Notes: a model not told the origin generated them from the letters alone. Counted from the stretch's first letter, positions 2,173 to 27,257 are shown. The stretch is DNA of 64,000 nt from Bacteroidales bacterium (GCA_015654795.1 JAATGF010000172.1:1-64000); one strand, 5' to 3'. Program-made: numbers and translations.

Positions 2173-2202
2173 TGTCCCGTTTTTTACGCAATAAACGGGA
2201 CA
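2173..2202. promoter_or_regulatory. Inverted repeat TGTCCCGTTT-N10-AAACGGGACA, candidate AbiEi operator
   Basis: Perfect 10-bp arms just upstream of a TAnnTTTG element and the abiEi start codon. Confidence 0.7.
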
Positions 2203-2209
2203 AATGCAT

Positions 2210-2217
2210 TATATTTG
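2210..2217 (+). promoter_or_regulatory. Bacteroidota-type -7 element TATATTTG upstream of abiEi
   Basis: Matches the TAnnTTTG consensus, about 16 bp before the ORF start. Confidence 0.5.
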
Positions 2218-2232
2218 CAAGAAATCATATGA

Positions 2233-3932: not shown

Positions 3933-3935
3933 ATA

Positions 3936-6392: not shown

Positions 6393-6396
6393 CGCT

Positions 6397-8352: not shown

Positions 8353-8364
8353 AACATTAATGCT

Positions 8365-9222: not shown

Positions 9223-10124
9223 TGAAAAACAGAGAAATATATGATTCAGTGTATCAATATTTAAGTCTAAAGAATATTGGTCCAGTGCAAACAAATAAGG
9301 TTCTGAATGCTATTATGGAACCATTTGAGCCTTATTACCTAAAGTCCCAGTTAAGATTGTCTTTAAAACCTGATCAATTAACGGAATTTGAAAATGCACC
9401 AAGCGTCCTGGATAATCTTAAAAGCAAATTTGATGTTGGATTTTTATTACTAATAAATCAGAACTATCCCGCTGGACTAAAAAAATGTTTATCGACAAAT
9501 ACGCCGCCAATTTTATCCTATATTGGTAATATTGGATTACTCAAAAAGCGAAAAGTTGGTTTTAGCGGTTCAAGAAAAGTTTCTGAAAAAGGAATAGAAA
9601 TAACCAAAGATTGTGTTGGACAATTAATTAATAATGATGTGATTATAGTGTCTGGTTATGCCAGCGGAGTTGATTTTGAAGCTCATTATGGTGCACTTTC
9701 AAACAGAGGAAGTACTATCATTATCCTTCCGGAAGGAATAAATAGTTTCCGAATTAAAAAGGAAATGAAAGAGATATGGGATTGGAATCGTGTTTTGGTT
9801 ATAAGCGAATTTAAACCGGATGAACCTTGGAAGGCAAGCCGTGCCATGCAGCGCAATAATACAATAATAGGCCTGAGTGATATTATGGTAGTAGTTGAAG
9901 CCGGAGAAACTGGAGGAAGTCTTGATGCTGGCATTAAAACATTGTCAATGGATAAATATCTTTTTGTCCCTCAATATAGTATTGTTCCGGAGTCAGCTTT
10001 AGGGAATAATCTATTAATAAAAAAAGGTGCATTCCCGATAAAGAAGAGTGCCAAAACATTAAAGGCTAACTTAGGAAAAATGTTTGAATTACTTGAGAAA
10101 TCAAACAGATACGAATTGTTCTAA
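9222..10124 (+). CDS. DprA/SMF-like Rossmann protein (ShosA-like)
   Basis: GFSGSRKVSEKGIEI...VIIVSGYASGVDFEAHYGAL...TIIILPEGI...RNNTIIGLSDIMVVVEAGETGGSLDAGI matches DprA/SMF. Confidence 0.85.
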   Translation: MKNREIYDSVYQYLSLKNIGPVQTNKVLNAIMEPFEPYYLKSQLRLSLKPDQLTEFENAPSVLDNLKSKFDVGFLLLINQNYPAGLKKCLSTNTPPILSYIGNIGLLKKRKVGFSGSRKVSEKGIEITKDCVGQLINNDVIIVSGYASGVDFEAHYGALSNRGSTIIILPEGINSFRIKKEMKEIWDWNRVLVISEFKPDEPWKASRAMQRNNTIIGLSDIMVVVEAGETGGSLDAGIKTLSMDKYLFVPQYSIVPESALGNNLLIKKGAFPIKKSAKTLKANLGKMFELLEKSNRYELF

Positions 10125-10158
10125 CTTATACGAACAAATATAAAAACCTAATGAAAAG

Positions 10159-13100
10159 ATGATGGAACAAATCGGCGCGAAAGAAATCATAACCCAAAAG
10201 CGATTGCTGAATCTTTTCAGCAAAAAGCTTGGTTATACCTATCTTGATGACTGGACTGACCGCGAGAACAATAGCAACGTGGAAGAAGAGTTTTTGCGAA
10301 AGTTTCTGACAGCCCGCAAGCTTTATTCTTCGGCTGAAATCAATAGTGCCATTAACCAGTTAAAACGCATTGCTGGCAATATCAGTGCAGGGCTTTATCA
10401 TGCCAACAAAGCGGTGTACAACCTGCTACGCTATGGAGTAAATGTGAGCGCCGAAGCATCCGAAAACAAAAAATATGTCCACTTAATAGATTGGGCGAAT
10501 CCGCTTGCCAATGATTTCTATGTAGCTGAGGAAGTAACGGTAAAAGGAAGAAATACCAAACGCCCCGATATTGTTATTTATGTAAACGGTATCGCGTTGG
10601 GAGCGATTGAATTGAAGCGCAGCACCTTGTCGGTGCACCACGGCATTCGCCAAAACCTCGATAATCAGACCGATGAGTTTATTCCTCAATTCTTTACTAC
10701 CGTTCAACTCCTTTTTGCAGGTAACGACACTGAAGGTCTGCACTATGGCGTGATTGATACCAAAGAAAAATTTTGGCTCCGTTGGAAAGAACAAAATCCG
10801 GAGGTTGCGAATGAACTTGATCGCAGCACCTTGCAGCTATTTGAAAAAAGCCGTCTGCTGGAAATCATTCACGACTTTGTAGTTTTCGATGGAGGCATAA
10901 AAAAAGCCTGTCGTCCCAGCCAGTATTTTGGAATTAAGGCATCACAGCCTCGTGTCCGTAGCAAAGAAAGCGGCATTATATGGCACTCACAAGGTTCAGG
11001 CAAAAGCCTGATGATGATTTGGCTGGCCAAATGGATACGCGAAAACATTCAGGATGCACGAGTGGTGATTATCACCGACCGAGACGAACTTGACAAGCAA
11101 ATAGAGTCGGGTTTCAAAGGAGTGGACGAGCATATAAAACGGGCAAAATCGAGCGCTTCGCTTATTGCTATGCTCAACGAAGCAAATCCCTGGTTGATTA
11201 GCACCCTGATTCATAAATTCGGAAACAGATCGGAGAACGAATTGCCGGAAGTGGGCAACAAAAAAGCGACAAAATCAATAGAGCAATACTTGCTGGAAGT
11301 TCAGGAAAAACTCCCGAAAGACTTTTCTGCCAAAGGCAATATCTATGTTTTTATTGATGAGTGTCACCGTACTCAAGGTGGTATGCTTCACGAAGCGATG
11401 AAAGCCATAATGGGCGAAAACGTGATGATGATAGGTTTTACAGGAACGCCACTGCTGAAAACAGACAAAAAGAAATCAATAGAAGTGTTTGGCAGCATTA
11501 TTCACTCCTACAAATTCGATGAAGCGGTCGAAGATCATGTTATACTCGACCTCCGTTATGATGCGCGCGATGTGGAACAATATCTGGGAAATAAGAATAA
11601 AATCGACGATTGGTTTGAAACAAAAACAAGCGGACTCTCCAATGTCGCCAAGTCCTTGCTGAAAATCCGCTGGGCACGCATGGAGAAACTGTTCAGCAGC
11701 AAAGAAAGGATGCAGCGTATTGTTGCTGATATCTGTCAGGATATGGATACAAAACGTCAGTTGGTTGGAGGTTATGGCAATGCCATGCTGGTGTCCGACA
11801 GTATTTATCAGGCTTGTAGGTATTGGGAATTGTTTCAGGATACCGATTTAAAAGGACATTGCGCCGTGGTGACAAGTTATGAGGCCAATGCAAAAGATAT
11901 AAAAGATGAAGCTACTGGTGCAGGTGACACGGAAGAGAAAGTCAAGTACGAAATAACCAAACGAATGATGGGCGATAAAACGCCCGAACAATTTGAAGCC
12001 TGGGCGAAAGAAGAGTTTATAAAGCATCCGGCAACGATGAAATTATTAATTGTGGTGGATAAGTTGCTTACCGGCTTTGATGCTCCGGCGGCAACCTATC
12101 TCTATATCGACAAACCGATGCAGGATCACAATCTTTTTCAAGCCATTTGCCGTGTAAACAGGGTGGATTCAGAAGAAAAAGATTTTGGATACATTGTTGA
12201 TTATCAGGATTTGTTCGGCTCCATTAAAAACGCCATCGAGGACTATACTTCCGCAGCTTTTGACGGCTACGAAAAAGAGGATGTAGAAAACTTACTGACC
12301 AATCGCCTTGTTGAGGCTCGTAAAGGGTTGGAACAAGCCTTGCAGGCAGTGGTAACGCTTTGTGAAGTGGTAGAACCGCAAACACGTGAAGGTTTCTTTG
12401 GCTACTTTGTATATCAGGAAACAACTCCAGTTGAAGAACAAACTACTGAATGCGAAACCAATGCAGAAAAACGTGAGAAACTGTATAAATTGGTAAATTC
12501 GTTAGTACGTCGCTATATTGACCTTGCCAATGAAATGAAGCAAGCAGGTTACAACAAAGAGGACGCAGCCAACATTAAAAAGCAGGTCGACTTCTACAAC
12601 GATCTGAAAGACGAGATAAAACTGAAAAGCGGCGATGCGCTCGATTTGAAGTTTTACGATCCTGCCATGCGCCAGCTAATCGACAACTATGTGCGTGCTG
12701 AAGATAGCGTGGAAATTTTCAAACTCGAAGATATTTCATTTATTGATTTGATAGTTAAAGAGGGTGAAGGCGCAATTGATAAACTACCCAATGAAATAAA
12801 AAGCAATCAGAAATCGGTAGCAGAGACCTTGGTGGCCAATATGCGCAAAATGATTATTAATGAACGTCCGAACAACCCTGCTTATTTTGATAAAATATCT
12901 GAGCTGCTCAACCAACTCCTACAAGAACAAAAAGAAGGAAAATTGCACTATAAGGAATTGATTGAAAAACTGATTAGTAAAATCAGAGAAGTCAGAGGCA
13001 AAACAAAACCCAATTATCCAACAGGCATAAATACATCTGGGAAACAGGCTCTTTACGATAATCTTGAAAAAGAAGAGGAACTTGCATTAGCCGTTCATGA

Positions 13101-13257
13101 CGCAGTTGTTACTTATGCCAAACATGGATGGAGAGACAATAGTGTACCTGCTAAAATGAAACAGGTGCGTAAAGCTGTTCGATATGCTTTACCAGGTAAA
13201 GATGATGAAAAGATCAGCGAGATAATGAGTATCATTTCAGCGCAAAAAGAATATTAA
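10159..13257 (+). CDS. hsdR: Type I restriction endonuclease subunit R (HsdR)
   Basis: N-terminal nuclease region (RPDIVIYVNGIALGAIELKR), GIIWHSQGSGKSLMMIW Walker A, FIDECHRTQ (DEAH-like), MIGFTGTPL. Confidence 0.96.
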   Translation: MMEQIGAKEIITQKRLLNLFSKKLGYTYLDDWTDRENNSNVEEEFLRKFLTARKLYSSAEINSAINQLKRIAGNISAGLYHANKAVYNLLRYGVNVSAEASENKKYVHLIDWANPLANDFYVAEEVTVKGRNTKRPDIVIYVNGIALGAIELKRSTLSVHHGIRQNLDNQTDEFIPQFFTTVQLLFAGNDTEGLHYGVIDTKEKFWLRWKEQNPEVANELDRSTLQLFEKSRLLEIIHDFVVFDGGIKKACRPSQYFGIKASQPRVRSKESGIIWHSQGSGKSLMMIWLAKWIRENIQDARVVIITDRDELDKQIESGFKGVDEHIKRAKSSASLIAMLNEANPWLISTLIHKFGNRSENELPEVGNKKATKSIEQYLLEVQEKLPKDFSAKGNIYVFIDECHRTQGGMLHEAMKAIMGENVMMIGFTGTPLLKTDKKKSIEVFGSIIHSYKFDEAVEDHVILDLRYDARDVEQYLGNKNKIDDWFETKTSGLSNVAKSLLKIRWARMEKLFSSKERMQRIVADICQDMDTKRQLVGGYGNAMLVSDSIYQACRYWELFQDTDLKGHCAVVTSYEANAKDIKDEATGAGDTEEKVKYEITKRMMGDKTPEQFEAWAKEEFIKHPATMKLLIVVDKLLTGFDAPAATYLYIDKPMQDHNLFQAICRVNRVDSEEKDFGYIVDYQDLFGSIKNAIEDYTSAAFDGYEKEDVENLLTNRLVEARKGLEQALQAVVTLCEVVEPQTREGFFGYFVYQETTPVEEQTTECETNAEKREKLYKLVNSLVRRYIDLANEMKQAGYNKEDAANIKKQVDFYNDLKDEIKLKSGDALDLKFYDPAMRQLIDNYVRAEDSVEIFKLEDISFIDLIVKEGEGAIDKLPNEIKSNQKSVAETLVANMRKMIINERPNNPAYFDKISELLNQLLQEQKEGKLHYKELIEKLISKIREVRGKTKPNYPTGINTSGKQALYDNLEKEEELALAVHDAVVTYAKHGWRDNSVPAKMKQVRKAVRYALPGKDDEKISEIMSIISAQKEY

Positions 13258-13952
13258 TGCAAGTTATCATAGTCAATAAAATTCATGTTGAAGTAGAATG
13301 GAAAGACATTAAGAATATACATCTTACTGTTTATCCCCCGGATGCCCGTGTGCATATATCCGCTCCGTTGGCTATGTCTGCTGATTCTGTACGTCTTTAT
13401 GTTATTACAAAACTCGAATGGATTAATAAACGTATCGAGATGGTTCGCAACCAAGCTCGTCAATCGGAACGCGAATATGTATCGGGCGAAAATCACTATT
13501 ACAAAGGCATTCGCTACCGGCTCAATGTGATTTATCGCAATACTCCACCGGCAGTTGAATTAAAAGGAACACGGAATATCAATATTTATGTACGCGAAGG
13601 TTCTTCTTCAGAAAAGAGAGGAGAGGTACTTCGTGAATGGTATCGTGCTGAATTAAAGGAAGCATTACAGCCTATTGTTGCAAAATGGGAAGAAATACTT
13701 CAGGTTCAGGCCAAACATTGGGAAGTGAAACAAATGAAAACCCTTTGGGGCAGCTGCAACACTCGCTCTCGACATATCATTTTTAATCTGGAACTGATTA
13801 AAAAACCGACACAATGCATTGAATATATTGTGGCACATGAAATGACTCATTTGGTTGAGCGCCTCCATAATTCAAAGTTTACAGCTATTTTAGATCATCA
13901 TATACCTAATTGGAGGCAGTTGAAAGATGAATTGAATGAGTTTATAGTATAA
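13257..13952 (+). CDS. YgjP-like (SprT-type/M48-like) metallopeptidase domain protein
   Basis: MKTLWGSCNTRSRHIIFNLELI...CIEYIVAHEMTHLVERLHNSKF, HExxH motif; overlaps hsdR stop (TAATG). Confidence 0.9.
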   Translation: MQVIIVNKIHVEVEWKDIKNIHLTVYPPDARVHISAPLAMSADSVRLYVITKLEWINKRIEMVRNQARQSEREYVSGENHYYKGIRYRLNVIYRNTPPAVELKGTRNINIYVREGSSSEKRGEVLREWYRAELKEALQPIVAKWEEILQVQAKHWEVKQMKTLWGSCNTRSRHIIFNLELIKKPTQCIEYIVAHEMTHLVERLHNSKFTAILDHHIPNWRQLKDELNEFIV

Positions 13953-14105: not shown

Positions 14106-14121
14106 TGTGACCCCACCGGGA
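14106..14121. repeat. attL: 16-bp direct repeat TGTGACCCCACCGGGA of the tRNA-Arg 3' end
   Basis: Identical to 27184-27199 inside/adjacent to tRNA-Arg; integrase gene begins about 170 bp away. Confidence 0.85.
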
Positions 14122-14286
14122 ACATTTTTTCGAATAAATCAATGATAAATACATTTCACAAATATACACTTTTATTCAATAAAACAAATAGTTGCAAATA
14201 AAATTTAAAATTTAAATATATTAGTATACATTTGGTTTCAATGATAACCATATGTATATTTGAGGTCTTACATATGGTTTTTGACT

Positions 14287-15555
14287 ATGAAATACTCTGT
14301 GAAGTTTTACCTGGAGAAGCGCAAAGATAAGAAAACTGGCCTTCCCATTGAAATTAACGTCCCAATATGGTCCTGCGTTTTTTACTCAGGCAACCAGGTA
14401 TTGTATTATACCGGAAAAAGATGTGATTTGAAGCAATGGGACTCAGGCAAGATGCGGTTAGGTAAAGGCTATATCCTACCCAATGGGGATACCTCTACAA
14501 TTTTTAATGCAGGTATCAATAAAGTGGAAACGGCTATTGACGAACTTTTCAAAGCTTACGAAGTTGAAAATATAATTCCAGATCGCGCCCGGCTTCGATC
14601 AGACCTAAATAAACTAATAAAGGCAAAAAAAGCAGTCACCGTTGAAGAGGTGGTGTCTCAAAAAACTTTCTTTGAAAGATTCAAACAGTATGTTGACGAT
14701 GCACCGCTAAGCTATGAACGCAAAAAACACATGCAGACTACGTTAAACAAAATAACAAAATTTAATCAGTACACTACATTTGACATCATAACAACCGAAT
14801 ATCTGACAAAATTTCAAAACTATCTTAAAGATAAATGCAATCTGAGTGAAAACACTACAGCCTCAGAACTAAAACGCCTAAGAGCTTTTTTAAGCTATTG
14901 CGTCAAAAATAAATGGCTTTATACAAATCCATTCTCATCGTTTAGTATTAAGGCTGAATCATACGGTGATCCGGTTTTTATTACAGTTGAAGAAAGAGAC
15001 AAATTATTTTCTGCTGAAATTGATGATCCTAAGTTGGCACGCATCCGGGATCTGTTCGTTTTCCAGTGTTTCATTGGCTGCCGTGTTGGTGATATGATTA
15101 AGCTTAAGAAGTCCAGCATAGTTAATGACAGCATTGAGTATGTCGCTGCAAAAACCAAGGATGAGAAGCCGAGAACAGCACGAATTCCGTTATCAGAAAA
15201 GGCAAAACTAATTCTCTCCAAATATGATTTTGAAAACGGGGATCTATTGCCATATATTACCGACCAAAAATACAATGTTTATTTAAAAGAGCTTTTCAAA
15301 CACAAAAATGTGGATATAACCAGAATTGTAACTATTGCAGACCCCAAAACGCGCGAAAGCAAACAAATATCTATTGCTGACATAGCAAGCTCACATATGG
15401 CTCGACGCGTGTTCGTCGGAGGGTTACACCATTTAGGGGTTAAAAATGAAATAATAGCCTCTATGAGCGGACATACTGCAAATTCAAAAGCCTTTAGCCG
15501 GTATTACTCCATTAACGATGAAGATCGACAAAAAGCAATTGATTTGATCAAGTAA
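14287..15555 (+). CDS. Tyrosine-type site-specific integrase (SAM-like N-terminal domain, Bacteroidota type)
   Basis: FQCFIGCRVGDMIKLKKSS...HMARRVFVGGLHHLGVKNEIIASMSGHTANSKAFSRYYSI (R-H-x-x-R/H-Y catalytic pattern); ORF track start at 14260 is TTG, ATG at 14287 preferred. Confidence 0.93.
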   Translation: MKYSVKFYLEKRKDKKTGLPIEINVPIWSCVFYSGNQVLYYTGKRCDLKQWDSGKMRLGKGYILPNGDTSTIFNAGINKVETAIDELFKAYEVENIIPDRARLRSDLNKLIKAKKAVTVEEVVSQKTFFERFKQYVDDAPLSYERKKHMQTTLNKITKFNQYTTFDIITTEYLTKFQNYLKDKCNLSENTTASELKRLRAFLSYCVKNKWLYTNPFSSFSIKAESYGDPVFITVEERDKLFSAEIDDPKLARIRDLFVFQCFIGCRVGDMIKLKKSSIVNDSIEYVAAKTKDEKPRTARIPLSEKAKLILSKYDFENGDLLPYITDQKYNVYLKELFKHKNVDITRIVTIADPKTRESKQISIADIASSHMARRVFVGGLHHLGVKNEIIASMSGHTANSKAFSRYYSINDEDRQKAIDLIK

Positions 15556-15577
15556 TTAAATAAATCATTGATCAGGA

Positions 15578-15605
15578 AAGCCGGTAAACTATACCGGCTT
15601 TTTTA
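15578..15605 (+). terminator. Rho-independent terminator after integrase
   Basis: AAAGCCGGTA-aacta-TACCGGCTTTTTT. Confidence 0.85.
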
Positions 15606-15906
15606 TGCTCTAAAGAATCGCATATTCACTCAAAAACGGATTTTCACGCGTTTTCACGCGTTTTCAGAGCTACAAATCAAAATTTACAAACATAATATAA
15701 TTTAATTTGGTTCAAATAAATACCTAATATTTGGTTTTATTTGGTATGTCTATAATGCTGTTGATAACTTGTTTATATTAAGCAACTAAATGATACATAA
15801 ACATATATAAACAAATATTCTGGTTCATTTCATATCAAAATGTATTATCTGAGATTTTTTCATATAAATGTAATTAACTTCGGATGTATAAATAATCATT
15901 AATAAA

Positions 15907-16116
15907 ATGACAGATAAATCAATCAAAAATTCAATTCCTAAGAGTAAGAAATTTATATACTCTACGAAGGAGCTTGCAGAGCTGTTGAATTGTACGGTTA
16001 TCACCGCCAATCGAATTAGAAATTCCGGTCAAATACCATACTTTCAGGCGGGGAAAAGAAAGTATATATTTGACGTTGAGAAGGTTATGAAAGCGATCAA
16101 AAGAGGACCAAAGTAA
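15907..16116 (+). CDS. Small HTH (excisionase/DUF3853-like) DNA-binding protein
   Basis: STKELAELLNCTVITANRIRNSGQIPYFQAGKRKYIFDVEKVMKAI, MerR/excisionase-type HTH. Confidence 0.75.
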   Translation: MTDKSIKNSIPKSKKFIYSTKELAELLNCTVITANRIRNSGQIPYFQAGKRKYIFDVEKVMKAIKRGPK

Positions 16117-16121
16117 ACGCT

Positions 16122-16487
16122 ATGAAAAAAACAGAAATGAATCAACCAACAAAACAAGTTATGACTCCGGTGCCCAGGGTTTTAAGTTTTGAACAAATGC
16201 CAGCCGCTTTGGCGCACTTGATTGACGAAGTGAGCTGTTTGAAACTTATGCTGGAAAATCGGGATACAAAGCCACAGGAAGAACCTGAATCTAAATACAT
16301 TTATTCTATTCGCGGGTTGGCTAAATTTCTGAATTGTTCCCAGGTGACGGCTCAGAAGCTCAAAAATGAAGGACAAATAAAATACCGGCAAATCGGTCGT
16401 AAAGTAATTTTCGAAAGACAGGAAGTCCTTAAAGCGATGGAAAATCATATTCCGGGTAACAGAAGCCGGAATTATCAGAGATCTTAA
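16122..16487 (+). CDS. HTH (excisionase/DUF3853-like) DNA-binding protein, paralogue of the preceding gene
   Basis: KYIYSIRGLAKFLNCSQVTAQKLKNEGQIKYRQIGRKVIFERQEVLKAM. Confidence 0.75.
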   Translation: MKKTEMNQPTKQVMTPVPRVLSFEQMPAALAHLIDEVSCLKLMLENRDTKPQEEPESKYIYSIRGLAKFLNCSQVTAQKLKNEGQIKYRQIGRKVIFERQEVLKAMENHIPGNRSRNYQRS

Positions 16488-16500
16488 ATATTCGTTAGTC

Positions 16501-16695
16501 ATGAGTCCAAAAAACAATATAGCCAGGGAACCCGTCCAAGATTCACAGGACAAATCCGAAGTGATTGATATAATGCTTCAATCTGAAATTACTGCAATTA
16601 AAAATTGGATCGATGATTTACGCGCTTTAAAATCAACTGTGGCGATTTATAATGATCCAAAATGTAGTCGAGAACGTACGAAAACGTTGCAGTAA
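16501..16695 (+). CDS. Small hypothetical protein
   Basis: 64-aa ORF in the operon; its stop is close to the next start. Confidence 0.5.
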   Translation: MSPKNNIAREPVQDSQDKSEVIDIMLQSEITAIKNWIDDLRALKSTVAIYNDPKCSRERTKTLQ

Positions 16696-17417
16696 TGAAA
16701 GAGAGTTTTTTGATTTACAAATCACTTTATGAGCCATTAAAATCTCTTAGTTTTGAAGAGAAAGGGATGCTTTTTGATGCTATTTTCAAATATCAAATAG
16801 AAGGTATTGTCCCAGAATTGCCGCCGCTGCCTAATATGGCATTTCAATTTGTGAAAGGTCAATTCGATCGAGATATTATTAAATATGAGAACGTTGTAGA
16901 ACGAAATAAAAATAACGGTGCAAAAGGCGGACGGCCTAAAACCCAAAAGAACCCACTGGGTTTATTGAAAACCCAAAAGAACCCAAAGAAACCCAAAAAA
17001 GCCGATACTGGTACTGATACTGATACTGATACTGATATTATTTCTGTCTCTTTCGAGACTTTTAGAAAGTCTTTCCCTGGAACCAAAAGGGGGTTGAAAA
17101 CTGAATTAGAAAATTTTCTGAAAAAGAATAATTCTGAAAGTATCAAGTTGCTTTTACCCGCACTTGAAAAGGAAATTCAATACCGCTTAAAACTTGTAGA
17201 ACAAAACGAGTTTATTCCTTCATGGAAAAATCTTTCAACATGGATAAATCAAAAATGTTGGGAACAAGAATTTCGAGAAATTAATACAATCAAACAGGTA
17301 AACGGGAAGATTGCTGCATCTCAAACCGTAACAGTACCATTGATAGATCCCGAAATTATAAGGCGTTCAAATGAAGAAAATCTCAAAACCATCAAACAAC
17401 ATGAACTCCAAAATTAA
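16695..17417 (+). CDS. DUF6291-like phage replication-associated protein
   Basis: FLIYKSLYEPLKSLSFEEKGMLFDAIFKYQIEG...MAFQFVKGQFDRDIIKYENVVERNKNNGAKGGRPK. Confidence 0.75.
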   Translation: MKESFLIYKSLYEPLKSLSFEEKGMLFDAIFKYQIEGIVPELPPLPNMAFQFVKGQFDRDIIKYENVVERNKNNGAKGGRPKTQKNPLGLLKTQKNPKKPKKADTGTDTDTDTDIISVSFETFRKSFPGTKRGLKTELENFLKKNNSESIKLLLPALEKEIQYRLKLVEQNEFIPSWKNLSTWINQKCWEQEFREINTIKQVNGKIAASQTVTVPLIDPEIIRRSNEENLKTIKQHELQN

Positions 17418-18789
17418 AAACGAATTAGGTTTAATACCTCCTCAGGCATTAGAAGTTGAAGCGGCGGTTCTGGGAGCTTTAATGTTGGAAGCGGATGCTT
17501 TTCGTAAAATATCAGGAATAATTAAAGCCGAAAGTTTTTACCTGGACACTCACAGGATAATATTTGAGGTCATCAAATCACTTTCAGATTTAAATAGGCC
17601 GATTGATCTAATAACTGTAACTCAATCGCTTCACGATAAAAACCAATTAGATAAAATTGGCGGTCCACTAGTTATTACTCAACTTACATCACATGTTGCA
17701 TCAGCGGCACATATTGAATATCATGCCTATATCATTGCTCAGCTCTCAATGAGGAGACAATTGATTCGGGAATCTTCACATTTTATTGCCTCACTGTGTG
17801 ACAATGACGCTGAATTAGATGAGGTTGTCGATATAATGAAATATTCCATCGATGGAATTATGAATGGATCAGGGGCCATAATTGGAAAACTGCAACCTCA
17901 AATATTAAGTGAAGCATTGACAGAAATAAAAGAGGCTTGCAGAATTCATAAATCAGGAGGTTTGCCAGGCATATCAACAGGCTTTAAAATGTTAGATTTT
18001 TCTATTGGCGGCTGGCGTAGGGGTACTTTGGCAATTGTAGCTGCCAGAACAGGCATTGGCAAAACGTCACTGGCTATGCACTTTTTAAAAGAAGCGGTAA
18101 AGCTTGATAAACACGTGGTATTATATTCGTTTGAAATGACAGCTTCAAAGCTAGGGCAATTCATGTTAAGCGCTCTTTCGGGCGTAAATAGAACCGTGTT
18201 ACGTGATGGTTGGACAAGTCCGGAGGAGTTAGATTTGATAAATAAAGCTGTTAAGGCATTAGAAAACCAGAAAATTAGAATAGTTGATTCCGGATTATCA
18301 ACAATTGACCAAATTTCCAGGGATGTGGCCAGATCGTCAATGAAAGGTGAATGTGATCTTGTTATCGTTGATTATATCGGACTTGTAAAAACATCTTCAT
18401 CAAATATATATATGAGTAATGCTGATCGTATTGCAGAAATATCAGGCACACTCAAACAAATATCTATGAGTAATAATATTCCCGTTCTTTGCTTAGCTCA
18501 ATTGAACAGAGAAGCCGAAAAGTTTGAAGAGCCCCAGCTACACCATTTAAGAGATAGTGGTGCCATTGAACAGGATGCCGATATTGTTCTGATGCCATTT
18601 TATGACGAAAAAACAGGGACTAAGCAATTCAAACTTAAAATTGCTAAGAATCGGGATGGTGGATCCGGGAGCTCAATTGATATTTTTCCAAATGATCAGT
18701 TTAACGTATTCTCCGATAAACCGGATAATATTCAGGTAAATTACAATCCAAATAGAAATATTGAACCGGGTGAGGATAACGCATTTTAG
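17401..18789 (+). CDS. Replicative DNA helicase, DnaB-like
   Basis: PPQALEVEAAVLGALMLE...GISTGFKMLDFSIGGWRRGTLAIVAARTGIGKTSLAMHFLKEA...LVIVDYIGLVKT; alternative start at 17371. Confidence 0.95.
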   Translation: MNSKIKNELGLIPPQALEVEAAVLGALMLEADAFRKISGIIKAESFYLDTHRIIFEVIKSLSDLNRPIDLITVTQSLHDKNQLDKIGGPLVITQLTSHVASAAHIEYHAYIIAQLSMRRQLIRESSHFIASLCDNDAELDEVVDIMKYSIDGIMNGSGAIIGKLQPQILSEALTEIKEACRIHKSGGLPGISTGFKMLDFSIGGWRRGTLAIVAARTGIGKTSLAMHFLKEAVKLDKHVVLYSFEMTASKLGQFMLSALSGVNRTVLRDGWTSPEELDLINKAVKALENQKIRIVDSGLSTIDQISRDVARSSMKGECDLVIVDYIGLVKTSSSNIYMSNADRIAEISGTLKQISMSNNIPVLCLAQLNREAEKFEEPQLHHLRDSGAIEQDADIVLMPFYDEKTGTKQFKLKIAKNRDGGSGSSIDIFPNDQFNVFSDKPDNIQVNYNPNRNIEPGEDNAF

Positions 18790-18825
18790 CTATTAATCCA
18801 TTTAATCATAACAAAAGCAAATCAA

Positions 18826-19176
18826 ATGAAAAAGGATCTTACAGAAAGACTTTTGTCACCGAAATTAAGGACTGCTTGGATTATTGCGCCACAGCGGTCA
18901 ACCGTTTTCAATCCTGAATTAGAAGAGTTGGAAAATGTATTTAAAATGTTATCCAGAGATAAAGCGATTGATCTGGCTGAATTTACTGTTAAGCATTTCA
19001 AACTACCGCATCATATCTCAAAAGTTTTTCCTCCTCCGTCAACTAGTCAGAAAATGGCCGCGGAGATCCTTTGTGATGAGCTTAAAATTTACCTTAATCG
19101 ATATCGTTCAATTACAATTTTCCGCAAGATGGTTGTTTTCAAAAATCATTATACAAGTTTAATCAGTTACCAATAA
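18826..19176 (+). CDS. Hypothetical protein
   Basis: 116-aa ORF co-directional with the phage module. Confidence 0.5.
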   Translation: MKKDLTERLLSPKLRTAWIIAPQRSTVFNPELEELENVFKMLSRDKAIDLAEFTVKHFKLPHHISKVFPPPSTSQKMAAEILCDELKIYLNRYRSITIFRKMVVFKNHYTSLISYQ

Positions 19177-19187
19177 ATAATTTCAAA

Positions 19188-19460
19188 ATGGCAAAGAATA
19201 TATATAAAACAGAAATTGCAATAATCAAAACGACAATGCTCCAAAGCCCAAATCCTATGTTTATGCCATGGACGGTAGACTTTTGCAATGAGCGGTTTAA
19301 TTTTAAAACTCCATTTCGCAGCAAAATGCCAAGTGAGTCAAAATCCGAATATGTTAATCAATTTATTGATTTTCTGACTGCTTTTCTCATAAAAAAAGAT
19401 AGTGATAGGTCTGAAAATGAAACCATTTTAGCAATTTATATAAAAAACTTTCTTTCTTAA
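19188..19460 (+). CDS. Hypothetical protein
   Basis: 90-aa ORF in the phage operon. Confidence 0.5.
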   Translation: MAKNIYKTEIAIIKTTMLQSPNPMFMPWTVDFCNERFNFKTPFRSKMPSESKSEYVNQFIDFLTAFLIKKDSDRSENETILAIYIKNFLS

Positions 19461-19496
19461 TAAACATCAAATTCTTAAAATTTTAAAACATTAATT

Positions 19497-19820
19497 ATGA
19501 ATGCAAATAATAAAGCTCAAATTCCTATTCTTGCTAGTTTATCCGATGATCTTTTGATTTCTGCCGTTGCAGAAATAGGAAGTATGCTCGATACAGATTT
19601 GCCTAAATTCAAGCCTGGCATGGACAAAACAAAGTATGCAACCAGGGTCATGGAAAAGGTTGAAGCTTCAGCAGCAAGATTCACGGAACCCGAAGCCAAA
19701 AAATGTGCGGATAAAATCGTTAATCGAATAAAAAATGAAAGCCCTGATCTTTGGTCTATTATTACAGGAAAATTTAAAATGCTTCGTTCAATCTTAAATT
19801 TCAATTACCGTAAAAATTAA
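19497..19820 (+). CDS. Hypothetical protein
   Basis: 107-aa ORF in the phage operon. Confidence 0.5.
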   Translation: MNANNKAQIPILASLSDDLLISAVAEIGSMLDTDLPKFKPGMDKTKYATRVMEKVEASAARFTEPEAKKCADKIVNRIKNESPDLWSIITGKFKMLRSILNFNYRKN

Positions 19821-19824
19821 TGCA

Positions 19825-20097
19825 ATGGATGCACAAAACTATATTTCACCTGAAAATAAAAGACAGATTGAGAAGGAAATGAAAGCTCTTAAAGGAGATT
19901 TTATTTGGTACACCACTGAAATTATTAACGAATGGTTTAACATGACTTATCCCAATATGGAAAAGGTCAATAAGAAACGGCATGAATATATTCGCCTTTT
20001 ATGCCAATATCTGTGGAGACACATAGCAGATTCGAAAGGGATTACTGATTACTCGGAATCTATTGCAAAGCTTAAAAATATGTTCAAAATAGAATAG
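19825..20097 (+). CDS. Hypothetical protein
   Basis: 90-aa ORF, one base from the next gene's start. Confidence 0.5.
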   Translation: MDAQNYISPENKRQIEKEMKALKGDFIWYTTEIINEWFNMTYPNMEKVNKKRHEYIRLLCQYLWRHIADSKGITDYSESIAKLKNMFKIE

Positions 20098-20098
20098 A

Positions 20099-21025
20099 AT
20101 GAATACTTCAAAACCTATTAACGTCCTGATCGAAGAATTCCTAAGCGAAGCTGATTGTATTGCCAGCTCAAAACGGACCTATCGCATTTCGTTGAATCTC
20201 TGGGTTAAGTATATGGTTCAACATGCAGATATAATAAATCCTACGAAAGCAAATCTGTTAACCTATCGTGAGTACCTAAGAGCTCAAGGCAAATCCGTTT
20301 CTACAATCTCACTATATTTTGCAGCAATAAAACTATTCTTTAAATGGTTAAGTATTAAAGATATATTTAATGATATTAGTGCGGGCCTCCAATGGCGTAA
20401 CAAATCTATTTCACACAAAAGGGACTCCCTTTCGATCGAACAGGTATCGCAATTACTGTCCAGAATGGATAATGTCACGTTAATTGAGGCTCGTAATTAT
20501 GCAATAGTTAATCTGATGGCACGGTGTGCATTACGATGTACTGAAGTGTCTAAACTTGATGTTTGTGATTTGATAAAAAAAGGTGACAGGTTTTCACTTA
20601 GATTACAACGTAAAGGCCATAAGGATAAGGATGAATCTATCCATATAACTGACAGTATAATCAATCCAATTAATAAGTATCTGAATCTTAGAGGTGCCTA
20701 TCTTCCGAGTGATCCCATGTTTGCCCGGTGTGGTCAGTGTCCGGGATATCGTTTATCAACCATAACCATAGGCCATATAGTTGTTAACGCTTATTCGTTA
20801 ATTGATACTGAAGGGAAAAGATTGTCCGCTCACTCACTGCGCCATACTGCCGCTGAACTTGCAAAGGATAGTGGTTCGACAGTCTATGAGATTCAGCAGT
20901 TACTTGGTCATCGTGACATAAATACAACCATGATCTATTTAAGCGGTTTTGACCGCAAAGGCAGAGAGGCAGACAACGCTATCAATGCAATCGATGAAGT
21001 GTACAGAAACGCATTAAAAGGATAA
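20099..21025 (+). CDS. Second tyrosine recombinase, XerC/D-like
   Basis: LMARCALRCTEVSKLDVCDL...LSAHSLRHTAAELAKDSGSTVYEIQQLLGHRDINTTMIYLS. Confidence 0.93.
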   Translation: MNTSKPINVLIEEFLSEADCIASSKRTYRISLNLWVKYMVQHADIINPTKANLLTYREYLRAQGKSVSTISLYFAAIKLFFKWLSIKDIFNDISAGLQWRNKSISHKRDSLSIEQVSQLLSRMDNVTLIEARNYAIVNLMARCALRCTEVSKLDVCDLIKKGDRFSLRLQRKGHKDKDESIHITDSIINPINKYLNLRGAYLPSDPMFARCGQCPGYRLSTITIGHIVVNAYSLIDTEGKRLSAHSLRHTAAELAKDSGSTVYEIQQLLGHRDINTTMIYLSGFDRKGREADNAINAIDEVYRNALKG

Positions 21026-21174
21026 AGAACCTGTATAAATTCAAACATTCAAGACATGACATGTGGTTAACACGGAATTTATTGCACATCGAACTATGTT
21101 AAATTGATGTATGAGGGTCACTATAAGTTAGCTAGTCTTAGACATAAGCTAATAGATTGAAAAATAATAGTATA

Positions 21175-21240
21175 GGGGGGCGGGTAAAATCTCTACAGGG
21201 TGACATCCCCGCGACCGCATCCAAAGTAAATTTCTCCGCG
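21175..21240. promoter_or_regulatory. Candidate cos-like/packaging region (GC-rich tract)
   Basis: GGGGGGCGGGTAAAATCTCTACAGGGTGACATCCCCGCGACCGC stands out in AT-rich non-coding DNA upstream of the capsid gene. Confidence 0.45.
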
Positions 21241-21674
21241 TGCTAAATTGGGGAAAATGGGTTTAGCTTTTAGGTTTGAATTGATGCATTACTTAGAAAT
21301 CATTGCTACCTCGTTCTTTTGATTATAAAATTGCGTTGGGTGTCGGAAAAGTAAATTTTGTACACACCTTTTGTGATTCCCAGTTGTTGCGCTCGCTTAT
21401 TCCTTTGATCAATGCTTAAACTTTATTAGCAATTTAACAATAATGATAATCATAAGTATTGTGAATTATGATTTCGGCTAATAATTGAGCTTTTAGCGAG
21501 TTATTTCACTACCGTATTTTTTTTTCTATTCTGATATTTATTTATGTATGCTTTGTAAGTAATAGATATATAGTTGTTTATACTTTAAAATATTTTTTTT
21601 TGATTTTTTTTTGATCCGCTATCAATGTCGGTAGATTTGATCTCATTAAGTATCAAAATCTAATATTATTCAAC

Positions 21675-22940
21675 ATGTCAAAGTTCGATGATTTGAAAGT
21701 AAAGCATAGTGAGCTTACAACTGAATATTTCCGATTAATGGACCAAGGACCAACAAATGAAAACAATAAAAAGTTGGATGAACTTGAAGTTGCAATGGAC
21801 CATATCAATCGGGAAATTGAATTTGAAAATAAAAAATTTCGTTTTAGTGCAAATTATTTTAATAATTTAACAATGGGAGAATCACGTGAATTGCAGAAAT
21901 TTAGCTTTGCAAAGTTCCTGCGCGAAGCTTCAACTGGTGTCCTTACCGGACTAGAAATGGAGTCGCATCAAGAAGGTGTAAAAGAAATGCGTCATATAGG
22001 GGGTGAAGATGCAAAGGGTTTTTGCATCAGTGAAAAGGTGTTACTTGCTACAAATGTTCGTGCAAGTACCGGCCAAAATATTACAAATCCCGCCGATGGT
22101 GGTAATTTGGCACATACAATGCCCGTGATGTATTTTGAAGCGCTGTCAAATGCTCTTGTATTACCCAGCTTGGGAGCTACGTTTTTACCTGGACTTAATG
22201 GCTATTTGCCAATTGTCCGAGGATCGTTGTTTGATGCTGAGTGGTTACCTGAAGGAACTGGTTCAACAACTGTTAAAGCGCAATATGGTAAAATTTTAAT
22301 GCAAGCGAAACGCGTATGTGCTGCCGGTGTATTCTCAAAACAGTTACTTATTCAGACTTCTTTAGGTGTTGAAAACATGATCTTAAACGGTCTGGTAAAT
22401 GCCAATGCGCAAGCTATCCAAACTGCTATAATCAACGGTTTAGCTGCCAATGACCAACCAGTCGGAATATTAACCACCGAGGGTATAGCGATTGTACCGG
22501 GTGGAGATAATGGCATAGCTATAGATTGGTCTCATATTGTTGCTTTAGAAACAGCCGTTGCCCTGGTAAATGCTGATATTGGTTCACTTGGTTACCTTAC
22601 CAATGCAAAGGTTCGAGGCAAATTAAAAAATACTTTGAAATCAGCCGGTGCACCGGCGTATTGTTGGGAAGGGGCTGAGGTCAATGGCTATAAAGCTGCG
22701 GTCACCAATGCAGTACCTTCAAACCTAAGCAAAGGCACAAGCGTTGAAAACTGTTCGGCCATTATTTTTGGTAATTGGAAAGACTTATTGATTGGAAGTT
22801 GGGGAGGTCTTGACGTTGTAGTTGATCCTTACACTTTAGCTGATAAAAGCGAATTGCGTATTATCGTTAATAGCTTTGCCGATGCCGCGATTTCGAATCC
22901 TGCATCATTTTCAATGATGAAAGACGTGCTTACCATTTAA
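21675..22940 (+). CDS. Phage major capsid protein (HK97-fold type)
   Basis: N-terminal coiled-coil scaffold-like region then GGNLAHTMPVMYFEALSNALVLPSLGATFLPGLNGYLPIVRG...WKDLLIGSWGGLDVVVDPYT, typical of HK97-like MCPs. Confidence 0.85.
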   Translation: MSKFDDLKVKHSELTTEYFRLMDQGPTNENNKKLDELEVAMDHINREIEFENKKFRFSANYFNNLTMGESRELQKFSFAKFLREASTGVLTGLEMESHQEGVKEMRHIGGEDAKGFCISEKVLLATNVRASTGQNITNPADGGNLAHTMPVMYFEALSNALVLPSLGATFLPGLNGYLPIVRGSLFDAEWLPEGTGSTTVKAQYGKILMQAKRVCAAGVFSKQLLIQTSLGVENMILNGLVNANAQAIQTAIINGLAANDQPVGILTTEGIAIVPGGDNGIAIDWSHIVALETAVALVNADIGSLGYLTNAKVRGKLKNTLKSAGAPAYCWEGAEVNGYKAAVTNAVPSNLSKGTSVENCSAIIFGNWKDLLIGSWGGLDVVVDPYTLADKSELRIIVNSFADAAISNPASFSMMKDVLTI

Positions 22941-22956
22941 TATGGATTTTTTCATG

Positions 22957-22997
22957 AAAACCCTGCCTTCCAGTTAACCAGACTGGGGTAGGGTTTT
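22957..22997 (+). terminator. Hairpin after the capsid gene
   Basis: AAAACCCTGCC...GGGTAGGGTTTT. Confidence 0.7.
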
Positions 22998-23012
22998 ACT
23001 TTTAAAATCTCA

Positions 23013-23105
23013 ATGGCAACTAAAAATCTTAAGGTCCTGATATCGGTTGATACAAAGCCGTATCGCGCTGAAATTGATCAGGCTGATGTAGTAAATATCA
23101 AATAA
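23013..23105 (+). pseudogene. Truncated duplicate of the tape-measure N-terminus (30 codons)
   Basis: MATKNLKVLISVDTKPYRAEIDQADVVNIK* versus MATKNLKVLMSGDTKPYRAEIDQAGAATTK at 23800. Confidence 0.8.
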
Positions 23106-23106
23106 A

Positions 23107-23565
23107 ATGAAAAAAGACTTTATCACAATCAACGATCAGGAATACCGTGTTGAAATAAACATGAATACGGTTGAAAACTGGGAACGACTTTCAGGCAAAA
23201 GACTTGGACAATTCGAAGTCGAGGCTGCCCAGTCGGCTAAAAAAGGAGGTGTATCAACGCGAGCTATGCTACTCTGGTTTTTTTGCGGTATCACAGAAGG
23301 TGAAGATATCGAAGGTCGCAAGTTTGAAACCAGTTTTCTTGATTTTAAACGCATGCTGAAACCTTCTGTTATGTCTGAATTTGCTGTTATTTTCCTTCGT
23401 CAGTACCTGAAAGAAAAATCAGATTCAGGAACTCATGATGATGTAAAAAAAAAGAAACTGAACCGGTCGCGCTTTGCCAGCTTCGTCAGATTGCGCTGGG
23501 TGAAATGGGTTGGCGCCCTGTTGATTTTGAGTTTTGCCGGCCTGCTTATTTTTTTGATGCATTAA
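23107..23565 (+). CDS. Phage tail assembly chaperone, zero-frame product (gpG-like)
   Basis: Immediately upstream of tape measure; MKKDFITINDQEYRVEINMNTVENWERLSGKRLGQFE...; A9G slippery run at 23445-23454. Confidence 0.65.
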   Translation: MKKDFITINDQEYRVEINMNTVENWERLSGKRLGQFEVEAAQSAKKGGVSTRAMLLWFFCGITEGEDIEGRKFETSFLDFKRMLKPSVMSEFAVIFLRQYLKEKSDSGTHDDVKKKKLNRSRFASFVRLRWVKWVGALLILSFAGLLIFLMH

Positions 23566-23795
23566 CGGGTCATTATGCTGCAAAAAATGAGCGTTTTGAG
23601 TTTGCTTATAACATAGCGCGCATATCCGTTTGCACGCTTCGAAATGTTCAGTTAACACCCGAAACGCAGGTTTTACCGTCTGCGATGTGGCCGGACTGGA
23701 ATTCAAAAGAGGAAAACAACGGAAATGAAACTATCGATCCGCAAAAACTAAATGAAAATATACGATCTGCAATTGATTTTCTGAATAAAAGATAA
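23454..23795 (+). CDS. Tail assembly chaperone, -1 frame extension (gpT-like part of gpGT)
   Basis: The -1 frame is open from the slippery site: ETEPVALCQLRQIALGEMGWRPVDFEFCRPAYFFDALTGHYAAK...; A_AAA_AAG heptamer 23448-23454. Confidence 0.7.
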   Translation, partial: ETEPVALCQLRQIALGEMGWRPVDFEFCRPAYFFDALTGHYAAKNERFEFAYNIARISVCTLRNVQLTPETQVLPSAMWPDWNSKEENNGNETIDPQKLNENIRSAIDFLNKR

Positions 23796-23799
23796 AATT

Positions 23800-25434
23800 A
23801 TGGCAACAAAAAATCTAAAAGTATTAATGTCAGGCGATACAAAGCCGTATCGCGCTGAAATCGATCAGGCCGGCGCTGCAACTACTAAGTTTCAGAAATC
23901 GGCGGGTGATTCGTTTAATGAGTTGGCTCAGGTTTTTGGCGTTCAAATTGGTGATATCAAAGAAAAGTTACAGTCGTTTGCGGGCGGTTTTAAGACGCTG
24001 CTTACTTCTATGAAGGCATCATCCGAAGGCGCTTCGTTTTTTGCCGGTGGAATGAAAATTGTCAAGATTGCACTTGCATCAACAGGCATCGGATTATTAA
24101 TCGTTGCCCTTGCTTCCCTGGTATCATATTTCACACAGACCGAACGCGGAGCCGAATTTGTTGAACGTGCTATGGCCGGATTAAAGGCTGCCTTTAAAGT
24201 TCTGATCGATCATGCTTCCGCTTTTGGAGAGGGTTTATTAAAGATATTTAAGGGTGATTTTCAGGGTGGATGGGACGCTTTAAAGAATTCGGTTAAAGGC
24301 GTTGGTACCGAAATGGCTGAAGAGGCGAAAGAGGCAAGTGCACTTGAGCGCAGATTTCAGGCGCTTGAAGATGCAGAAAAAGAATTGGAATTAGTCAATT
24401 CGGAGCGTAGGGCTAATGCCCGTGAATTGTTTGCACAGTCCAAGGCTGAGAATGTAGATGCCGAAACTAAACAGAAACTCATTCGCCAGGCTATGGCACT
24501 TGAAAAACTTGCCTTTAATGACGAAAAAACATTAGCTGCTGAACGGCTTGCTATTCATAAGGGGCAAGTAGAACAGGGTGAGGCGCGCGACGAACAGAAT
24601 TATAAAACCCTTGAATTACAGGGTGCAATTAACAACCTGAATCGTGACGCCGCAAATGTGGAAATGAGTTATTCTAAAGCCCTGAAAGCCGCAAATAAAG
24701 AGATTGAGGCTCAAACGGCAGCAACTATTAAAGCTGCTGAAGCTGTACGCATCTACGAAGATAATATCAAGAATAGCAAACTAATGGAAGGAAAATTAAC
24801 TGGGACCACTGTTAAATCCAATATTGAAGTATCTACGACATCAAAAGATGGGGGTTTTATGGATAACATCAAAAAATCACAGGCGCTTTCAGATGCGAGA
24901 TGGAGGAAAGAGCAGGAAAATATAGTAAAAACAAAAGATGTTTATATGGATTTATCCGACTCTATTGCAAGTGGATTAAGCGAAATGGCAAATGGTACTG
25001 GTGAATTTTTGGGGAAACTGATTAATGGTGAAGGAAGTCTTAAGAGTTTTGGAGAAATGATTGCAGGGGTTTTTGCGGATATGGCTATCAATGTAGGGAA
25101 AGGAGCCATTTTGACGGGCACGGCTATGTTAGCTCTAAAAACTGCATTAAAATTTGGCAACCCTTATGTTGCTATCGCTGCCGGCATTGCATTGGTTGCT
25201 TTTGGTACTGCTTTGAAAGGGGCTTTATCAAACTCTGCTTCTGGTGGTGCAACCGGATCAATGGAGGGTGGTCAAAAATATAACTACGATTACGATACAC
25301 GTGGAACTATCGGTACCAATCAGGCTGCTACACAAAAGGTTGTCGTTGAAGTAAACGGCACACTTAATGCTTCACCGAAAGGGTTAACGACAACTTTAAG
25401 CAAGGAGAATACAAGGGTTTATTATTCGACGTAG
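23800..25434 (+). CDS. Phage tail tape measure protein (short, 544 aa)
   Basis: Ala/Lys-rich helical protein with hydrophobic segments (IVKIALASTGIGLLIVALASLVSYF; GNPYVAIAAGIALVAFGTALKGALSN), downstream of the chaperone pair. Confidence 0.85.
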   Translation: MATKNLKVLMSGDTKPYRAEIDQAGAATTKFQKSAGDSFNELAQVFGVQIGDIKEKLQSFAGGFKTLLTSMKASSEGASFFAGGMKIVKIALASTGIGLLIVALASLVSYFTQTERGAEFVERAMAGLKAAFKVLIDHASAFGEGLLKIFKGDFQGGWDALKNSVKGVGTEMAEEAKEASALERRFQALEDAEKELELVNSERRANARELFAQSKAENVDAETKQKLIRQAMALEKLAFNDEKTLAAERLAIHKGQVEQGEARDEQNYKTLELQGAINNLNRDAANVEMSYSKALKAANKEIEAQTAATIKAAEAVRIYEDNIKNSKLMEGKLTGTTVKSNIEVSTTSKDGGFMDNIKKSQALSDARWRKEQENIVKTKDVYMDLSDSIASGLSEMANGTGEFLGKLINGEGSLKSFGEMIAGVFADMAINVGKGAILTGTAMLALKTALKFGNPYVAIAAGIALVAFGTALKGALSNSASGGATGSMEGGQKYNYDYDTRGTIGTNQAATQKVVVEVNGTLNASPKGLTTTLSKENTRVYYST

Positions 25435-25513
25435 AATCCTAATGTTGATATAAAATATTAGAAAATACAACTGGTCTCCGAATTGCAGTTGGATAAATCT
25501 GGATTTTTTCATA

Positions 25514-25554
25514 TAAACACCGACGCCAGGGGAAAGCCTTGATCGGTGTTTTTT
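25514..25554 (+). terminator. Terminator after tape measure gene
   Basis: AACACCGA...TCGGTGTTTTTT. Confidence 0.8.
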
Positions 25555-25600
25555 ACTAAATAATGGAGCAGACATCTTTTGATTCACATTACTTATATGT

Positions 25601-25891
25601 TTAATTCAGTTTTTCAATTTGATTATCTGAAGGTAATAATGAGTTTCTGAAATATTTAAAATTCCTATACTTAGGTTTACCTGTAAGCCTTTGAAATTCG
25701 TTATTACAAATTTCAAAGGCTTGCTTTTGGGACAATTCGAAACCTTCTTTGTTTATGCCTTTGATTGTTTCTATAATGACATTCGTGAATCCGTATGGTG
25801 AGATCATTCGAAATAGGCATGATGGATCAGCTAATTTTAGCGTGGCACCTTTAATACATTCTCTTTCTCGTTTTTCAATTACATTTTTCAT
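25601..25891 (-). CDS. Hypothetical protein (element cargo)
   Basis: 96-aa ORF antisense to the phage module. Confidence 0.5.
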   Translation of the reverse strand: MKNVIEKRERECIKGATLKLADPSCLFRMISPYGFTNVIIETIKGINKEGFELSQKQAFEICNNEFQRLTGKPKYRNFKYFRNSLLPSDNQIEKLN

Positions 25892-25987
25892 TTTACGGTT
25901 ATTTGAGGATTTTGAAATTTATGTTTTTAATTTACAAAGCACAATTTTGATAATAAAACAATGTTGTTATTGAGAATCATTAGAGTA

Positions 25988-26455
25988 TTAACGAACAATT
26001 TTTAATGAAGGGTTGAAATTATTCTGATAAGGTGGGTGTTTGTGAATGGCATGTGCTGAATTAGTATACTTCATAATTGCACAATCTGTATACGCTTCAT
26101 CTAGTTCGTTTTTGTGCTTTTCCTTTTGCTTTGACAAAGTATCCCTGTAATATTCGATACCAATCCGGTAATGTTCCATCATTTCGAACATTTTTTCTTC
26201 AGTATCTTTACGATGACATAACATCTGTTTTATCAGATTAAAACTCTGAATCGTATTTAATTTGATTTCATCTGTTAAATGTCCTTCGCAGGATTCGAAG
26301 AGTTGATTTTGAAAATTAGCTAACCTCTTTTCATCCGCTCCGGACCAAAGATATTTGATCGATTTCTTGAGGTGGAATAAATCAGTTTCATCTTTACTCA
26401 TTTCTCGTACTGGTAATTTTTCTGATTTTTTCATTTTTTCATTTTTTGAAGGCAA
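25988..26455 (-). CDS. Hypothetical protein (element cargo)
   Basis: 155-aa charged, coiled-coil-like ORF. Confidence 0.55.
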   Translation of the reverse strand: MPSKNEKMKKSEKLPVREMSKDETDLFHLKKSIKYLWSGADEKRLANFQNQLFESCEGHLTDEIKLNTIQSFNLIKQMLCHRKDTEEKMFEMMEHYRIGIEYYRDTLSKQKEKHKNELDEAYTDCAIMKYTNSAHAIHKHPPYQNNFNPSLKIVR

Positions 26456-26540
26456 TGTAAATCATGAATATTTTGTAATTTACTATTAATTAAGAGGTTG
26501 CTTAGTTTTTTCATATTCAACTTGAATTTCGTTCATGGTT

Positions 26541-27077
26541 TTATAAATTTCCTGCGTGCTTTTGTAAATATGTGCTCTTTGCTATGCTTACTTTGTTTTC
26601 CAATGCCAATAATATTTTATCAAAATCCTCAAGATTTGCGAAGATGTTTGATAAATTCGTCAGAAGTCTAAGCGAATCGTAGAATTCAGAGCTACCCAAT
26701 TGCTTAAGCATGAAGGCAGTTTGTTGGCTGCCTGAAATTAGCGCAAGTAAAGTATTAATTCCAAACGAATATTTAGTAAGATTTTTAGCTAATTCTGAAG
26801 GAGATACAGATTCAAACATTTTCTCTAAGCCTACCACATCACTAGGAGTTTTCATATCTGAAAATATTCTGGCCAATAAATGTATATTTGCTGCATAATC
26901 CGCCATTTCGACACCAATATAGTTGTGCACTTTATCGGTTGTCTCTTCCCCTTCACATGCAACCATGTATAAAATTGATGAGAATTCGATCAAATTATCA
27001 AGAGAATGAGCACATTCTCTTGAATCAATTTCATTTTCGAAAAATCCTTGAAGCTGTTTAAAATTTAAAGTTTTCAT
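26541..27077 (-). CDS. Hypothetical helical protein (element cargo)
   Basis: ORF track start 27134; internal start MKTLNFKQLQGFF at 27077 preferred. Confidence 0.55.
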   Translation of the reverse strand: MKTLNFKQLQGFFENEIDSRECAHSLDNLIEFSSILYMVACEGEETTDKVHNYIGVEMADYAANIHLLARIFSDMKTPSDVVGLEKMFESVSPSELAKNLTKYSFGINTLLALISGSQQTAFMLKQLGSSEFYDSLRLLTNLSNIFANLEDFDKILLALENKVSIAKSTYLQKHAGNL

Positions 27078-27149
27078 TTTGAGTTTTGATTTTAAAGATG
27101 TTTTTTTAATTATGTTAATAATATGTTTAAGCATATGTGTTAAATAAAA

Positions 27150-27180
27150 AAACGCTGTAAATACATGATTTACAGCGTTT
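27150..27180 (-). terminator. Terminator downstream of tRNA-Arg
   Basis: Perfect 13-bp stem AAACGCTGTAAAT-acatg-ATTTACAGCGTTT followed by a T-run on the - strand. Confidence 0.85.
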
Positions 27181-27183
27181 TAA

Positions 27184-27199
27184 TGTGACCCCACCGGGA
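27184..27199. repeat. attR: 16-bp repeat TGTGACCCCACCGGGA at the tRNA-Arg 3' end
   Basis: Identical to 14106-14121. Confidence 0.85.
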
Positions 27200-27257
27200 T
27201 TCGAACCTGGATCAAAGGAACCGGAATCCTCCATTCTATCCATTAAACTATGGGGCC
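27186..27257 (-). tRNA. tRNA-Arg (anticodon CCG)
   Basis: GGCCCCATAGTTTAATGGATAGAATGGAGGATTCCGGTTCCTTTGATCCAGGTTCGAATCCCGGTGGGGTCA folds as cloverleaf; anticodon stem GAGGA/TCCTT with CCG; T-loop TTCGAAT; no encoded CCA. Confidence 0.92.

Follow-up and report, generated by a model that had tools for sequence, protein, structure and literature searches.

The question raised by this locus is whether a 13.1-kb element carrying capsid and tail genes beside an integrase and replication genes is a phage satellite or a decayed prophage. The element lies at positions 14106–27199 of the window, that is, of the whole 64-kb stretch of DNA that was analysed, and is bounded by 16-bp direct repeats at a tRNA-Arg gene. 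The sequence TGTGACCCCACCGGGA is found as an exact copy both at 14106–14121 (attL, plus strand) and at 27184–27199 (attR); the latter forms, with the 3' end of the tRNA-Arg(ccg) gene called at 27185–27257, a feature at 27184–27257 on the minus strand. The borders and att sites proposed in the original prediction were therefore confirmed, and the element has its own integrase and att sites, as a satellite with site-specific integration does. The homology of the right flank to genomes of the same genus ends at about 27137–27185, close to the 3' end of the tRNA, and the sequence beyond it differs. Across the genus, what lies 3' of this tRNA-Arg varies, and in G469 (L153) a recombinase-like ORF is present there. 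Directly to the left of attL (window 9222–13952), a DprA-like protein is encoded, together with two products that resemble, by eye, the type I restriction subunit HsdR and an SprT-like metallopeptidase.

The plus strand encodes a tyrosine integrase (int1) at 14260–15555 (Phage_int_SAM_5 and Phage_integrase in Pfam; phrog_1), two HTH_17/DUF3853 proteins that are excisionase- or regulator-like (15907–16487; Pfam, PHROGs), a primosomal/initiator-like DUF6291 protein (16695–17417; Pfam E = 1.5e-26, weaker PHROG primosomal matches), a DnaB-type replicative helicase (17371–18789; Pfam E = 1e-56, PHROG E = 6e-90), four small ORFs with no matches (18826–20097) and a second tyrosine recombinase (int2, 20099–21025; Pfam, homology to relatives). 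Pfam and PHROGs thus recovered all of the integrase, HTH proteins, DnaB-type replication and second recombinase that had been claimed, and the predicted DnaB and DUF6291 proteins give the element the replication genes of its own that are looked for in a phage satellite. On the minus strand, a 96-aa protein (25601–25891) is followed by two genes of 155 and 197 aa without significant matches (25988–27134). The 96-aa protein is a homologue of a small gene located beside TerL in the full relatives; members of this family were observed at L016:3183–3494, L091:14825–15043, L021:5937–6176 and L120:8963–9172, and the protein is retained in the reduced elements of the window, of G063 and, by profile, of G896. 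It is a candidate packaging accessory, as judged from its genomic neighbourhood.

The recognisable virion genes of the element are three, encoding the major capsid protein (MCP), the tail assembly chaperone (TAC) and the tape measure protein (TMP). Terminase, portal, protease, connector and tail-tube genes were not found in the element with Pfam, PHROGs and our own profiles, so that the claimed combination of capsid, chaperone and tape measure with no terminase, portal or protease was upheld by these searches and by homology. The intact set of an HK97-type prophage comprises TerL, portal, protease, MCP, connectors, the tail-tube gene (MTP), TAC and TMP, of which the element has MCP, TAC and TMP only. 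The gene order in the full relatives is int2 - cos - TerS - TerL - (small gene) - portal - protease - MCP - connectors - MTP - TAC - TMP, whereas that in the window element is int2 - cos - MCP - TAC - TMP. TerL of this phage family was also absent from the whole 69%-complete host assembly as searched with one profile (A7), and an unrelated terminase could be missed because a single TerL profile was used. A helper prophage with a terminase in the same genome, which had been suggested as a check, was accordingly not found within this scope.

The MCP, of the HK97 family, is encoded at 21675–22940 on the plus strand (PF05065, E = 5e-24; phrog_617, E = 3e-57) and is 57% identical to the MCP of G476, a full prophage of the same genus. 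An N-terminal delta-like region is present in the window MCP and mostly missing from the MCPs of G063, G678 and G356. The chaperone consists of a G-like ORF (23107–23565, plus strand), identified by homology to full prophages and containing a slippery A9G at 23445–23454, and a T-like extension in the -1 frame (23442–23795, plus strand), the trans-frame peptide of which is also conserved in G476 and G336; full phages share both this peptide and the -1 frameshift layout with the window. The TMP of 544 aa is encoded at 23800–25434 on the plus strand. Neither TAC nor TMP has a strong family match itself, and both were assigned by comparing sequence and gene position with full prophages, with TAC 55% and TMP 36–50% identical to those of G476. 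The TMP of G336, a homologue of the window TMP (E = 6e-46), matches a PHROG tape-measure family, as does the TMP of G063. The structure of the chaperone predicted without an alignment had a pLDDT of 55, which was too poor to use. As a separate candidate, a 138-aa protein adjoining TMP in L122 could not be established as a chaperone.

The original prediction also included a short tail, and this was rejected. The window TMP is only slightly shorter than the 552–606 aa of its nearest relatives, so the sequence gives no sign of an unusually short tail. Another feature of the tail region is a 30-aa ORF at 23013–23105 (plus strand) that resembles the start of TMP. It contains a 71-bp duplicate, located 73 bp past MCP and 85% identical to 23800–23870, which differs from the TMP start by nine synonymous and two nonsynonymous changes in 23 codons. 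Because the differences are mainly at synonymous sites, the duplicate probably originated in a diverged, functional tape-measure gene. The ORF may be what remains of a former MCP-TMP junction, or it may encode a peptide that is expressed. The simplest reading of this short sequence is that MCP was directly followed by TMP in an ancestor and that the present TAC-TMP pair was gained later.

Between int2 and MCP lies a noncoding tract of approximately 75 bp (21175–21250, plus strand) that is, by motif, alignment and position, a putative cos (packaging) site. Its motif, with the pattern GGGTNAAATC-N(35-65)-CGTGCNAAATT, matches the 64-kb window just once, at 21182–21249, and the G063 region once; shuffled sequences, 100 of them for the window, gave no match. 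When a looser pattern was applied to 1.8 Mb of loci, it matched nothing but four full phages and the elements of the window and G063. In the full phages of G476, G104, L027 and L033, the cos-like motif is a noncoding two-block motif of 65–67 bp located upstream of the TerS gene, and in G336 a related sequence is found at the equivalent place upstream of TerS. The site directly follows int2 in the window, and int2 adjoins cos in the G063 element and the full phages as well. The alignment of the noncoding tract of the window with that of G476 scores 51, compared with a shuffle maximum of 28 (0 of 1000 shuffles reach the score). Aligned over the whole region, the G063 site by itself does not reach significance against the window, and its match consists of the two blocks and their spacing. 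The suspected cos-like tract is thus real as a conserved site, and its conservation with full phages, together with its position, points to a cos site of the type from which a helper would package. An order-wide search with the cos pattern gave five further matches without phage genes nearby, which were judged to be due to chance.

Six further elements with an MCP and with no TerL or portal detected were found in related bacteria, in G063, G131, G678, G356, G896 and G537 by whole-genome MCP searches and by a search with the cos pattern alone. The MCP-based searches are biased to MCP-bearing elements, and only G131, which was discovered through the cos pattern and not through MCP, escapes this bias. 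TMP is also present in three of the seven reduced elements (window, G063 and G678). The G063 element, of about 12.6 kb, has a similar cos, TAC, TMP, a protease and MCP, with repeats at L134:5774–5809 and inside a tRNA-Arg(tct) at 18329–18403. That of G131 has cos and MCP between 18-bp repeats about 9.5 kb apart; that of G678 has MCP and TMP, with att in a tRNA-Arg(acg), in about 14.9 kb; and that of G537 has TerS and MCP, with att in a tRNA-Asp, in about 9.7 kb. In G356 and G896, MCP is present with no TerL or portal nearby, and no att repeats were found when they were looked for. TerL of this family is absent from the genomes of G063, G131, G678, G356 and G537 by profile A7. Since the order in G063 is TAC-TMP-protease-MCP and that in the window is MCP-TAC-TMP, what recurs is a gene set, not a single conserved operon. 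The expectation of a recurring reduced set was therefore borne out and that of a shared order was not, and the refuting outcome, a unique copy with homologues always in full-length prophages, is contradicted by the six other elements. The MCP and cos searches of genomes turned up no near relative of this particular element; the evidence on the age of the reduced state is therefore indirect, and the genes could have been deleted recently.

Other searches gave few additions. A class-wide MCP search yielded few new matches, and a single-sequence scan of genome contigs yielded none. An alignment-based scan gave 50 loci by one motif. Where a Bacteroidota locus had sufficient flanking sequence, it proved to be a full or degenerate phage; about 20 loci from Proteobacteria were left unclassified, the profiles not covering their terminases. 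G336 gave a second MCP match (L020), a lone fragment with transposase-like genes close by. The cargo of the G131 element (L146:5655–7999) encodes a trypsin-like protein, with PADLOC matches to RT-Protease_XI and LmuA, beside a 360-aa neighbour without Pfam or PADLOC matches and a small ORF that is RelE-like by eye.

In the MCP tree, the window is sister to G476 (support 100/99), and the neighbour of G063 is a Parabacteroides phage. The reduced label has to change four times or more; several of the remaining reduced MCPs are on long branches and their placement is unsure. With outgroups as reference, private changes in the MCP, TAC, TMP and int2 of the window are no more numerous than in their G476 counterparts; the comparison is an average over the entire post-split branch and gives no date for the reduction. 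The interrupted ORFs and relaxed evolution expected of a decayed prophage were not observed: the retained ORFs are uninterrupted, as had been claimed, and the relative rates are equal, with one partial TMP duplicate. In the nearest full prophage, G476, the MCP (L091:9926–11194) is broken by one TAG, and structural genes of the prophages at L049, L054, L055, L056, L068 and L098 are split by stops, which may reflect decay, sequencing error or stop read-through.

The element is best read as a cos-type phage satellite, with a probability of roughly 0.74, because cos is retained, reduced elements recur, and MCP, TAC, TMP and int2 have not evolved faster than in the full phage. These same observations favour the satellite over the decayed prophage, the two alternatives offered in the original prediction. 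The decay of a prophage, in which the terminase, portal, protease, connector, tail-tube and lysis genes were deleted and MCP, TAC, TMP and cos were left by chance, is unlikely. It agrees with the position of the nearest MCP in a full prophage of the same genus, with the failure to see a helper in the genome and with the recombination scar left by the duplicated TMP start. However, several separate deletions would be needed, all sparing MCP, TAC, TMP, cos, the integrase and the replication genes, and the intact ORFs, the rates equal to those of the full phage and the recurrence of reduced MCP elements, two of which share the same cos type, argue against it.

A fragmented source assembly (180 contigs, 69% complete) could in principle make a partly assembled or misassembled prophage appear to lack genes. 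Such an artefact is highly improbable, since a single contig carries both att repeats together with the host sequence flanking them, similarity to the relatives picks up again at the tRNA, no terminase was found elsewhere in the assembly with profile A7, and G063, G678 and G131 are similarly reduced in other assemblies. It is nearly as doubtful that MCP, TAC and TMP are expressed to poison the assembly of related phages, with the element spreading mainly with its host. Satellites and prophages are known to encode proteins that block the assembly of virions or tails (PMC12987554, PMC10884400, PMC11364771), and the intact conserved ORFs are compatible with such a role, but it leaves the conserved cos and the integration and replication genes unexplained. 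Satellites often do both, so interference is not exclusive of the satellite model.

If the element is a satellite, infection by or induction of a related siphophage (e.g. of the G476 type) would lead to its excision and replication, and the helper terminase would cut it at its own cos. The MCP of the element would join or replace that of the helper, operating with the helper portal and protease, and the resulting head would be suited to a 13-kb genome. Its TAC and TMP would enter a chimeric tail, the tube, tip and fibres of which would come from the helper, and the lysis genes would likewise be borrowed. More speculatively, the 96-aa protein may adapt the helper packaging motor. The chances are about even for the broader proposal that Bacteroidota harbour a class of cos-type satellites, evolved repeatedly, that supply a head subunit with or without TAC and TMP, giving a chimeric head and tail with packaging machinery entirely from the helper.

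Literature searches returned no described Bacteroidota satellite with this gene set. The combination of cos, MCP, TAC and TMP, with several independent similar reductions, suggests a possible general route from phage to satellite, in which a phage may keep its head subunit and tail-length genes, and the genes and cos motif described here are now usable for finding more such elements. The 11.2-kb plasmid pSR11 of Salinibacter ruber M8 (NC_014026.1, L148), which encodes at 575–9018 a P4-family primase, a large terminase apparently split across two ORFs and a tape-measure-like protein, may be an extrachromosomal phage satellite.

The full HK97-type siphoprophages of the same order (G476, G336 and G104) share homologous int2, cos, MCP, TAC and TMP with the element, but possess the TerS, TerL, portal, protease, connectors and tail tube that it is without. 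The capsid-forming PICIs (cf-PICIs) also have their own HK97-type MCP, and some carry a putative tmp gene (PMC12987554 Extended Data Fig. 10). The element is not a cf-PICI, since cf-PICIs encode a whole head and packaging set, with portal, protease, connectors and both terminase subunits (PMC10690885), none of which it has. In SaPIbov5, a cos-type SaPI, capsid geometry is altered by Ccm, a capsid-protein homologue that loses its N-terminal delta domain in the particle (PMC8569155). Like SaPIbov5, the element combines a putative helper-type cos with a single capsid-protein homologue and no terminase; it differs in belonging to another phylum, in adding TAC and TMP, and in having an MCP from the full-phage lineage of its own host group. 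The PLEs (phage-inducible chromosomal island-like elements) of Vibrio cholerae were described in 2026 as the first known case of satellites building chimeric tails; they do so with their own TMP, and tmp deletion lowered the transduction of PLE1 and PLE4 by 96% and 99%, respectively (PMC12987554). PLEs, too, encode TMP and TAC and no tail tube of their own, and chimeric tails are proven for them, but they parasitise the contractile-tailed ICP1, whereas the relatives of the element carry genes of the non-contractile siphophage type and the element adds an MCP. These similarities support a mode of action like that of the cos-SaPI/Ccm type and, in the carriage of TMP and TAC, like that of PLEs, as likeness of function rather than descent. 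Each half of the proposed mechanism thus has an experimental precedent, the capsid in SaPIbov5 Ccm and the chimeric tail in the TMP and TAC of PLEs.
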